A stretch of 64,000 nucleotides of DNA from Bacteroides eggerthii (GTDB lineage Bacteria > Bacteroidota > Bacteroidia > Bacteroidales > Bacteroidaceae), in the NCBI RefSeq assembly GCF_025146565.1, contig NZ_CP102258.1, positions 1,892,001 through 1,956,000 on the forward strand. The letters are read 5' to 3'. A model generated the notes under the pieces. The model saw only the letters and a program-made list of their open reading frames with translations, had not been told where the DNA came from and ran no database searches. The position numbers and the translations under genes are program-made. Below are positions 12,334 to 40,832 of this stretch, one piece after another. Positions within the stretch are counted from its first letter, which is position 1. Each line of letters opens with the position of its first letter.

Positions 12334-12514
12334 GATATTAGATGTTTGGGTTAGTAATGAAAGCAAATATAAATTCTTTACTTTATAATTCCAATAATTC
12401 CTTTGGTTTTTTGAAGGATAAGCTGTGCGGGTGTTTTTATAGTCTATTTTTGATTAGATAAGGATATTAGACAGACAAGATCAATATTATAATAAAACTG
12501 ATGAAAACTTCCTT

Positions 12515-12602
12515 AAATAAAGAACGCCCCTCAAGTATGCTGTCTTGCGACGCGCCTGAGAGGCTTATTATCTTTTGTTATTAAAACATCTGCCTTTTAA
12601 TT
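12515..12602 (-). ncRNA. Candidate small RNA following the Abi_2-type gene
   Basis: A promoter (see 12608-12637) lies directly after the Abi stop and would start a transcript near 12602 on the minus strand. The roughly 88-nt RNA has an A/U-rich 5' part and a 3' hairpin whose 8-bp stem pairs 12557-12564 with 12526-12533. Inside the loop, GUC-GCAA-GAC (12551-12542) forms a small stem capped by a GNRA tetraloop. The hairpin is followed by a U-rich stretch (GUUCUUUAUUU), so it also looks like an intrinsic terminator. No ORF fits inside. An RNA antitoxin or a 3'-end-derived regulatory RNA are both possible. That an RNA is really made is inference from promoter and hairpin. Confidence 0.5.
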
Positions 12603-12607
12603 TGTTA

Positions 12608-12637
12608 CAAAGATACGCATTTTTATCTAAACTGCAA
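12608..12637 (-). promoter_or_regulatory. Promoter of the candidate small RNA
   Basis: On the minus strand a -33 TTG (12637-12635) is followed after 19 bases by TATCTTTG (12615-12608), matching the Bacteroides consensus in both boxes and spacing. It lies wholly between the Abi stop codon (12651-12653) and the hairpin, so it cannot serve the Abi gene. Confidence 0.65.
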
Positions 12638-12650
12638 TGTCTTTTTCTCA

Positions 12651-13613
12651 CTATTTCTTGTTATTCCATATTATTTCATTTTCCCAGTTCTCGAAAAATC
12701 CCATTGCATTAAGTGAAATAATGTCCTCATTCTCTGTTAATAACGCTTTTAATTTTTTTTTGAATGGCGATGTCGGATTGGCAGTCTGTAACATATAGTT
12801 CAGCATACACAGGAAATAATATAGCTTGCTCCTTTTGGCTGTATCTGGATTGCTGATCCAATCAAGGGTTTTAGAAAAAGAAAGTTTTTCAGGGACTATA
12901 TTCAAGTCTCTGTTCCAAAGTCTGGCATGATGTGCACAGATATTACGAACATAATTGATTGTATGAAGCCACGAACAGAATGTTTTTGGAGGTAATGCGA
13001 AATAGGCGGCAATACCATTTATATCTGCACGTTGCTTCAGCCCTGTGCATATGCGTGAAAGATGATTGAAGTACATCACTTCAATACTCATCCAAGATGG
13101 AGGATTTTCCGGTTTGTCATATTTGTCTCTGTAGTGTTGAATAAATACTTCTGCCTTGTTGTTATGTAGTTGTTCCTTGATGTGTTTTTGAATGTCGTTA
13201 TATACGTCTATTGTAACGGTCTTCCCGTTACGTAGGGTTACGAGTGCCGGAGGATTAAAAATATCTTGTCTGTCTTGCCAATGTGAACCATATTTATGGC
13301 TGAGTTGATAGATTATTTGTGTACGAATGGCTATTTCAAGCCGCTCAATGGCATCAAAGACTAATATACGCAGTTTTCTGTCAAATACATACAAGTTGTA
13401 TATCATCTCCCAAGTGATTCCATCACGAAACGTATCAAGAATTATTCCATTTTCACTTTGTTTGTATGGTAGCATATAAGCGCTGAGGCGGTAGTAACTG
13501 ATATTAGCAAGATGCCTTTGGGCTCGTCTTTCGTCAGAAAAAATTAGGCCTCTTGATTTCAGTAGTTCAATCTGTTCCGTATATGTTAATGGTGCTTTAT
13601 TGTAGGTATTCAT
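12651..13613 (-). CDS. Abi_2 (AbiD/AbiF) family HEPN protein
   Basis: This 320-residue protein matches the Abi_2 abortive-infection family. The N-terminal block [13 protein letters not shown] and the segment [15 protein letters not shown] (about residues 11-50) are family hallmarks. The HEPN-type RNase motif Rx4-6H is present as RNICAH at residues 223-228, followed by HARLWNR. HEPN proteins of this family are thought to cleave RNA upon phage infection and stop cell growth. Abi_2 proteins have recently been discussed as relatives of the Cas13 HEPN effectors with an associated RNA. Length is full and no defect is seen. A TATCTTTG at 13643-13636 gives it its own promoter. Confidence 0.88.
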
Positions 13614-13635
13614 ATTTCTGTTTTTTTAGTAACTG

Positions 13636-13643
13636 CAAAGATA
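13636..13643 (-). promoter_or_regulatory. -7 element of the Abi_2 gene
   Basis: TATCTTTG on the minus strand lies about 23 bases upstream of the Abi start codon. No good -33 TTTG is at the usual distance. It is about 50 bases from the divergent guaA -7 element, so both genes share one intergenic region. Confidence 0.55.
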
Positions 13644-13690
13644 CGATATTTAAGTCGTTTAATTTTTGTGCTCAATCTCATTTTTCTTCG

Positions 13691-13698
13691 TATCTTTG
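13691..13698 (+). promoter_or_regulatory. -7 element of guaA
   Basis: TATCTTTG lies 30 bases before the ATG at 13728. A TTTG ends at 13668, 22 bases upstream. Its position inside the longest open frame shows that the guaA start must be 13728 and not the earlier in-frame codon at 13668. Confidence 0.7.
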
Positions 13699-13727
13699 TG
13701 CTCCAAATAATTAACACCTCTGTTTCT

Positions 13728-15281
13728 ATGCAAGAAAAGATTATTATTCTTGATTTCGGTTCACAGACCACGCAGCTTATCGGTCGTCGTGTTCGCGAGC
13801 TGAATGTATATTGCGAAATTGTGCCTTACAACAAATTTCCTCAGGGAGATGAGAGTGTAAAGGGAGTTATTCTTTCGGGCAGCCCGTTTTCCGTATATGA
13901 TGAGAGTGCGTTTAAAATAGATTTAAACGAGATTCGCGGTAAATACCCTGTATTGGGAATTTGCTACGGTGCACAGTTCATCGCTTATACCAATGGTGGA
14001 AAGGTTGAGCCTGCGGGTAGTCGTGAATACGGACGTGCACATCTGAATTCTTTTGATAAAGGCAATGTGCTTTTCAAGGGAGTGAAGGAGAACACACAAG
14101 TATGGATGAGTCATGGTGACACTATCACAGCAATTCCTGACAACTTCAAAACGATAGCTTCGACAGATAAAGTGAAGATTGCCGCTTATCAGGTGGAAGG
14201 CGAGAAGATGTGGGGTGTTCAGTTCCACCCGGAAGTGTTCCATAGCGAGGACGGCACGCAGATGCTGAAAAACTTTGTTGTGGAAGTGTGCGGTTGCAAA
14301 CAGGATTGGAGCGCTGCATCATTCATTGAAACTACCGTTGCCCAACTGAAAGAACAGCTTGGAGATGACAAAGTGGTGCTTGGCCTGAGTGGCGGAGTGG
14401 ATTCTTCCGTTGCTGCCGTACTGCTGAATCGTGCTATCGGTAAGAACCTGACTTGTATCTTCGTGGATCATGGCATGCTGCGTAAGAATGAGTTCAAGAA
14501 TGTGTTGCACGATTATGAGTGTCTGGGACTGAACGTAGTAGGCGTGGACGCAAGTGCCAAATTCTTTGCGGAGCTGGCAGGAGTGACCGAGCCGGAACGA
14601 AAACGCAAGATTATAGGAAAGGGATTTATTGATGTGTTTGATGAAGAAGCCCATAAGATAAAAGATGTAAAGTGGCTGGCACAGGGTACTATCTATCCGG
14701 ATTGCATTGAGTCGCTTTCTATCACCGGAACGGTTATCAAGAGCCATCACAATGTGGGAGGATTGCCCGAAAAAATGCATTTGAAGCTGTGCGAGCCGTT
14801 GCGTCTGTTGTTTAAGGACGAAGTTCGCCGCGTAGGACGCGAGCTGGGCATGCCGGATCATCTGATTACCCGCCATCCTTTCCCCGGACCGGGGTTGGCT
14901 GTGCGTATCTTGGGTGATATAACTCCGGAAAAGGTGCGTATCTTGCAAGATGCGGACGATATCTTCATTCAGGGCTTGCGCGACTGGAAGGTGAAGGATG
15001 CCGACGGAAATGAAACGGTGCTTTATCATCAGGTTTGGCAGGCGGGAGTTATCCTGCTTCCGGTGCAGTCTGTCGGTGTAATGGGAGATGAACGTACGTA
15101 TGAACGTGCTGTTGCCTTGCGTGCTGTTACTTCTACCGATGCCATGACTGCCGACTGGGCGCATCTGCCTTATGAGTTCTTGGGCAAGGTTTCCAATGAT
15201 ATTATCAACAAGGTGAAAGGGGTGAATCGCGTAACCTACGATATCTCCTCAAAACCGCCTTCCACAATTGAATGGGAATAA
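13728..15281 (+). CDS. guaA: GMP synthase (glutamine-hydrolysing)
   Basis: This 517-residue enzyme converts XMP to GMP using glutamine and ATP. The glutaminase domain has catalytic C79 in GICYGAQ and the H167/E169 pair in QFHPEVFH. The synthetase domain has the ATP pyrophosphatase loop SGGVDSS at 221-227, and the C-terminal dimerisation part ends in KPPSTIEWE. Start 13728 follows the promoter at 13691-13698. It is divergent from the Abi-type gene and followed by a bidirectional terminator. Purine genes are core, so this anchors the end of the accessory island. Confidence 0.97.
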
Positions 15282-40522: not shown

Positions 40523-40528
40523 CAATGT

Positions 40529-40591
40529 GTTTTTCATAGTATTAGATTTAAGGTTAACAAAGGTTGGAGTACAGCGGTACTCCTTTTTTTT
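40529..40591 (+). ncRNA. Candidate small RNA upstream of the xylan locus
   Basis: A transcript from about 40529 would run some 63 nt and end at a strong intrinsic terminator: GGAGTAC (40566-40572), loop AGCG, GTACTCC (40577-40583), then eight Ts. The 5' part is AU-rich and unstructured (about 40 nt) and lacks an ORF of note. The RNA is separated from the GH43 gene by more than 450 bases, so it is probably not a simple leader. An sRNA or an aborted leader of the xylan operon are both possible. I believe the AU-rich stretch around 40535-40562 recurs in Bacteroides genomes, but I cannot check that here. Confidence 0.55.
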
Positions 40592-40832
40592 GCTCTGTAC
40601 TTTTCTTTTCTTGCTGCAAATCAAGGACAAAAATGTAAAAATCTGAGTATATTCTTTCCTTATAGGTATACAATGTGATTAGCCTATATCTATACTTGTT
40701 CTTTAGGGATGAAATATTTTCGTTCTGTTTTTATGCTATATTCTATGCTTTTATTGCTTTTATAAGGCTGTTGCGGCGATGTAAAAGGTGTTCGAATTTA
40801 ACTTTTGATATATAATGGATTACTTAAGCGTG

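Follow-up and report, generated by a model that had tools for sequence, protein, structure and literature searches.

A conserved hairpin RNA with its own predicted promoter behind an Abi_2/AbiF-type gene of Bacteroides eggerthii, most likely a relocated relative of abiF antitoxin RNAs

Does the hairpin that follows an Abi_2/AbiF-type gene of Bacteroides eggerthii simply end the transcript of the gene, or is it an RNA partner of the encoded protein? The locus lies within a 64,000-nucleotide stretch of contig NZ_CP102258.1 (hereafter the window), where the Abi_2 reading frame (12651–13613, minus strand) is intact and encodes a 320-aa HEPN RNase-like protein, the presumed toxin, assigned from the open frame together with Pfam, PADLOC, PDB and fold matches. 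The protein matches Pfam Abi_2 (PF07751) with an E value of 1.5e-52 (179 bits against a cut-off of 25.6), and the gene matches the PADLOC AbiD profile with 1.5e-73; the Pfam scan returned Abi_2 only and did not place the protein in the ToxN/AbiQ family. A sequence search of the PDB found one strong relative, PbAbiF (8VZ6, E 1.1e-45; next match 0.34), a dimer with a bound ncRNA. Foldseek, run on a predicted model (pLDDT 77.9, built from a 13-sequence alignment), likewise matched 8vz6_A (E 6.2e-14, TM 0.74/0.79; next match E 1.5) and no other fold at E 0.001. The initial annotation had read RNICAH as an Rx4H HEPN motif. This holds: the motif occupies residues 223–228 (12930–12947, minus strand), aligns with R210/H215 of PbAbiF, whose mutation inactivates that protein (PMC12373285), and its R, N, C, A and H are unchanged across 13 aligned sequences. 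The same genome has a second, distant Abi_2 match outside the window (G000 contig 1, 3573071–3573625, 26.5 bits).

On the same strand, directly after the stop codon of the gene, the sequence and a promoter-box scan reveal ATTG (-33 box, 12635–12638), a 19-nt spacer and TATCTTTG (-7 box, 12608–12615), in agreement with the TTG-N19-TATCTTTG promoter described previously. From this promoter and a U-rich tail, an RNA of about 89 nt is predicted (12513–12601, minus strand), starting near 12601 and ending near 12513. Within it lies a hairpin (12526–12564), delimited by alignment, covariation and a model match (R1, see below), with an outer 8-bp stem, a 1-nt 5′ G, a GC/GC inner pair, an apical GUC-GCAA-GAC and a 3′ bulge, AUACU (12534–12538). 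The earlier description of the hairpin and its U-rich tail was correct as far as it went; it omitted the invariant GC/GC pair and the AUACU bulge, the two features that carry most of the resemblance to the abiF RNA family. Folding of a 105-nt segment gives -26.0 kcal/mol, compared with -15.95 (sd 2.83) for 200 dinucleotide shuffles, none of which folds as well (z -3.55). The single minus-strand ORF of at least 20 aa in the segment has 27 aa and runs from the stop of the gene to 12568; a coding role was rejected on this ground, and the promoter would lead to a non-protein product, as had been proposed. The gene itself is preceded by TATCTTTG as a -7 box (13636–13643, minus strand), with no good -33 box seen in the promoter-box scan. 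Model R1 matches once in the window, downstream of the gene, and no tandem RNA repeats are found upstream. An integron attC identity of the hairpin was also considered by eye against the consensus and rejected. Elsewhere in the window, the Rfam BTncRNA_FopS sRNA scores above its gathering threshold (40527–40593, plus strand).

The hairpin is retained with the gene. Nineteen loci were collected from the protein side: the window, L004–L007 (genus, 73–77% identity) and 14 further loci, L033–L046 (50–83%), from Xylanibacter, Parabacteroides, Bacteroides, Prevotella, Alloprevotella, Tannerella, Muribaculaceae and other Bacteroidales. Among these, the window and 18 found by protein similarity, 17 have the same hairpin directly 3′ of the gene, as the RNA-partner reading of the initial annotation expects of close relatives that keep the gene. 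L040 is a real exception, in which the gene is kept and the RNA is absent (its contig stops 136 nt past the stop codon, with other sequence there), and in L046 the Abi gene is degraded. L044 (Tannerella forsythia ATCC 43037) has an intact RNA hairpin beside an abi frame that is broken into two parts. An alignment of the 17 hairpins (A1, 15 distinct rows) gives a common structure of an outer 8-bp stem, an unpaired G, GC/GC, a variable apical stem-loop and the 3′ bulge AUACU. Pairing is maintained in 99.0% of 195 cells, 5 of 13 pairs have changed on both sides, and the covariation score is reached by none of 500 shuffles. Sliding the structure along A1 lowers pairing to 28–57%, and the lowest-energy fold, which pairs columns 17–18 with 39–40, was set aside as less consistent in relatives (96.8% of cells paired vs. 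99.0%). Further pair types, used as another measure of covariation, show no excess over shuffles (483/500). In a 21-sequence alignment all of 246 cells are paired (100%), but this alignment was fitted to the model and therefore leans to the structure. A1 shows no variation in AUACU (17/17), in the GC/GC pair or in several of the upstream A's; the AUACU bulge is likely to be a protein-contact element.

The promoter is conserved as well. A TANNTTTG box occurs within 75 nt of the stop codon at 16 of 17 loci, 15 of them at the usual distance, compared with 166 of 3400 resampled sequences (4.9%); the outliers are L045, where the box is misplaced, and L044, which has TACCTTTA at that place. A -33 box with at least three of four letters accompanies the RNA at 14/17 loci, a count made without a control. 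For the gene, a -7 box lies within 45 nt of the start at 11/17 loci (the starts of L042 and L043 being placed by hand), and a -33 box of at least three of four letters is found at only 2 of the 14 loci having any -7 box. Because of this difference (14/17 vs. 2/14), the promoter of the RNA looks stronger than that of the toxin.

Is this RNA related to a known family? An Rfam scan of the whole window at the gathering score does not match abiF RNA (RF03085), and RF03085 gives no match in 12370–13750 at E values up to 10. The RF03085 consensus comprises an outer stem, a 1-nt 5′ bulge, AGC/GCU, an 11-nt loop and a 6-nt 3′ bulge, and this plan is common to the window hairpin. A scan by shape alone, applied to 25 distant relatives (L008–L032, 33–44% identity, the best 25 of a longer hit list), found 22 in which an RNA of the abiF plan precedes the gene, with 1/162 upstream and 3/162 downstream matches in resampled controls. 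Some of these upstream RNAs resemble RF03085 and others are missed by Rfam; those of L009–L013, L008, L015, L019, L025 and L028 give no RF03085 match even at E 10. Since the abiF-shaped RNAs of Bacteroidales thus extend past the Rfam model, Abi_2 genes annotated as standing alone may often have an unannotated RNA partner. At the 17 scannable window-clade loci among those collected from the protein side, the plan was found downstream in 13 (L006, L007 and L045 were missed, and L040 is without RNA). The downstream RNA in L088, which is nearly a duplicate of L007, is missed as well, and the scan matches apparently unrelated upstream hairpins in L005, L006, L007, L088 and L042.

The connection between the two groups comes from intermediates, with R1 as a model of the window-clade RNA and R2 as a model of the upstream RNAs built without intermediates. 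L073 and L074 score above the RF03085 gathering score (37.4 and 39.1 vs. 37) and are also matched by R1 (35.6 and 33.6 bits); an intermediate form of the RNA is visible in alignment A6, and L076 is a weaker third bridging sequence. R2 matches L074 (6.5e-6) and L073 (1.6e-5), gives weak values for the deep-branching window-clade members L045 and L072 (E 0.04 and 0.41), and on the window RNA yields 5.7 bits, which is not significant and is exceeded by three chance hits within that stretch. Because this direct link failed, the kinship with abiF RNAs rests on the intermediates. The gradient of R2 scores would fit descent with divergence, although R2 fails when the window RNA is tested by itself. 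Taken together, these comparisons make relocation of an abiF antitoxin RNA the most likely origin of the window RNA. L073 contains two tandem abiF-like motifs by R2 (521–571 and 588–640), resembling the two motifs of RCd22 of Clostridioides difficile, and no Abi match was found around them in the 2.1 kb examined.

The protein tree (51 proteins, drawn with a midpoint root) suggests how the arrangement arose. The window clade comprises 21 rows, 20 with the RNA downstream plus L040 without it (support 99/97), and is joined by L074, whose RNA is upstream (100/99); PbAbiF falls in a separate clade, grouping with L030, L031 and L032. A single move of the RNA from upstream to downstream would explain this pattern, with L074 and L045 flagged as long branches. 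L092 and L097 have the hairpin downstream yet are placed elsewhere in the tree. The idea that these AbiD-type genes use the downstream hairpin is weakened, as a differently shaped RNA lies upstream of them and of their relatives; because of this RNA of their own, AbiD-type genes need not use the downstream hairpin. This further type of upstream RNA accompanies the AbiD-type genes L106–L114 (AACAGAACCCGUCGGC...GGCGGGUC in L109–L111). In L114, an AbiD-type gene, its RNA is present on both sides, upstream and downstream, possibly illustrating an intermediate state.

Gene and RNA also behave as a unit. In two relatives (G007 and G077) the guaA and DUF5039 genes directly adjoin, and the window has about 1.28 kb between them that contains only abiF and the RNA (12405–13687, minus strand); in G007, 138 bp separate the matched stretches at the empty site. 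This is read as an insertion of the module in the lineage of the window, the alternative being loss in both relatives. By tblastn, relatives occur in 409 of 72,556 plasmid records and 71 of 50,697 phage records, none at 60% identity or more in either set. A scan of viral contigs with six peptide patterns found no close relative.

The RNA also occurs apart from the gene. R1 was scanned against 157 genomes of the genus, 393 of the order and 301 of the family (overlapping samples), with matches of at least 50 bits taken as strong. Of 31 strong distinct copies, 13 lie behind a window-clade abiF gene, and eight of these 13 were used to build R1. The 23 fresh copies divide into five behind window-clade abiF, three behind AbiD-type Abi genes (G041, G756, G750) and 15 without an Abi match in the flanks checked (about 0.6–1.5 kb upstream for seven loci, several kb for eight). 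The 18 copies that are not behind window-clade abiF (L079–L087, L089, L092, L094–L099, L101), several of them beside defence-like genes, still pair in 97.7% of 219 cells of a model-fitted alignment, and three (L062/L080, L063/L083, L089) have the promoter box at the usual distance. Upstream neighbors of the RNA copies include, by Pfam, HSDR_N, HipA_C with Couple_hipA, Peptidase_M78, an MBL fold with RMMBL and a nucleoside-hydrolase-like domain, and, named by eye only, HNH-like, GNAT-like, AAA/DUF4143-like and Wzc-like genes. At one conjugation-linked site the flanks are common and the gene differs between loci, which looks like replacement of abiF with the RNA staying in place. Solitary copies may be remnants, terminators or immunity RNAs. 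That solitary copies of the putative antitoxin RNA (15/31, in mobile elements and defence hot spots) serve as immunity or anti-addiction RNAs is a rather speculative reading; if true, an incoming AbiF module would meet a host that is already protected or could be displaced by an element, and gene and antitoxin would have been able to separate because the RNA had been relocated to the 3′ side of the gene.

These observations bear on three other explanations. The initial annotation had itself allowed that the hairpin might be just the terminator of the Abi gene. It is indeed a stem followed by a U-rich tail, and at several loci (e.g., L060, L067, L095, L098) it stands directly behind other genes without the promoter box, where a terminator would suffice. 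A plain intrinsic terminator, however, would keep its pairing and neither its unpaired bases nor a promoter. Here, compensated variation in the paired bases goes with an unchanged single-stranded AUACU and several unchanged upstream A's, the promoter box lies just ahead of the hairpin at 15/17 loci, and bridging sequences tie the hairpin to the abiF RNA family. A further hairpin with a T-run also follows shortly downstream in L004, L006, L033 and L035 (by eye). A terminator and nothing more is therefore unlikely; the hairpin may double as the terminator of the RNA itself.

A recombination or cargo-exchange site, beside which defence-like genes are swapped in conjugative elements and chromosomal hot spots, would account for the hairpin lying within a constant right flank at the conjugation-linked site (traG-like neighbor, by eye) while the upstream gene differs: abiF in L004 vs. 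a Peptidase_M78 gene in L081, and abiF in L033 vs. AbiD-type genes in L084/L097. It would also account for extra sequence directly after the hairpin in L005 (about 420 bp from about 2598, plus strand, missing in the closely similar element of L007) and a short way past it in L083, which is about 4 kb longer there than L079. But the breakpoints vary from -32 to 0, no integrase was noticed beside the hairpin, the promoter box and the abiF RNA kinship are left unexplained, and replacement of abiF by other cargo with the RNA left behind explains the same data, which leaves an exchange site very unlikely. The remaining explanation, that the RNA is no antitoxin but regulates in cis as a 3′ untranslated region or pairs as an sRNA with other targets, draws on the lack of a visible terminator between the stop of the gene and the RNA, so that the mRNA would carry the RNA at its 3′ end, and on the RNA copies without Abi. 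Against it stand the linkage to the abiF gene from the protein side (17/19) and the kinship with abiF RNAs, which in C. difficile are shown to neutralise in trans by binding directly (PMC12373285); it is the most improbable of the three.

The locus is thus probably an AbiF-type module whose toxin is neutralised by an RNA, with the RNA relocated behind the gene and acting in trans. Conservation, covariation, promoter-box retention, kinship via intermediates, phylogenetic placement and presence or absence of the unit were obtained here, and the suggestion of the initial annotation that an Abi_2 toxin is coupled to an antitoxin-like RNA gains support from the PbAbiF fold and family, the covarying RNA and the bridging kinship. 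We infer transcription, binding, toxicity, neutralisation and the trigger of the module. The gene product would be a HEPN RNase-like protein that the downstream RNA, transcribed from its own better-looking promoter, would bind as a folded hairpin and hold inactive. Were the balance between RNA and protein disturbed, for example by an infecting phage, the RNase would be released and growth would cease. Related clades have the RNA after the promoter and ahead of the gene, a position in which it may also serve as a leader terminator limiting toxin transcription. Placed behind the gene, the RNA would act only in trans, and since its new place removes leader attenuation, control would fall to the two promoters and an excess of RNA. 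In C. difficile AbiF is toxic, and RCd22 binds and neutralises it in trans and, in the leader, also terminates transcription ahead of the gene (PMC12373285); as RCd22 neutralises its AbiF, the window RNA should by analogy be an antitoxin. AbiF and its RNA are reported as the origin of Cas13 (PMC12373285, PMC12737573). The window clade may be seen as a natural experiment in turning a toxin-bound RNA into an independent RNA gene, a step also required on the way toward CRISPR RNAs.

Among known systems, PbAbiF with its AbiFr ncRNA (8VZ6) shares with the window an Abi_2 HEPN protein whose R and H align and whose fold matches, and AbiFr has a single-stranded bulge and is a reported RNase inhibitor (PMC12373285, PMC12737573); the window RNA is also bulged. 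In the PbAbiF clade, one neighbor has a mapped RNA (L031), which is upstream, whereas the window RNA is downstream, has its own predicted promoter and lies outside the Rfam model. AbiF_Cd/RCd22 of the phi027 prophage likewise combines an Abi_2/AbiF protein, an RNxCAH motif and a hairpin RNA. RCd22 is upstream, has two abiF motifs and a promoter in common with the gene, and attenuates the gene (PMC12373285); the window RNA has one motif, is downstream and has a separate predicted promoter. RF03085 and the window RNA share an outer stem, a 1-nt 5′ bulge, a GC/GC inner pair, an apical part and a 5–6-nt 3′ bulge, and differ in that the window RNA has a mini-hairpin of variable length in place of the apical loop, AUACU in place of CAAAUC and no match at E 10. 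Type III toxin–antitoxin systems (ToxIN, CptIN, TenpIN) resemble the proposed module in a toxic RNase neutralised by direct RNA binding; unlike it, they use a different toxin family, have their RNA repeats ahead of the gene and form pseudoknots (PMC12373285). Of the hallmarks of AbiF systems, the abiF RNA architecture and kinship are found here (shape scan; L073/L074 matched by both models), while placement in the upstream leader of the gene is not: in 17/19 clade loci, the window among them, the RNA is downstream. An RNA behind the gene, with a promoter of its own, would, judging from the sequences, be what is new relative to the AbiF systems described in PMC12373285.
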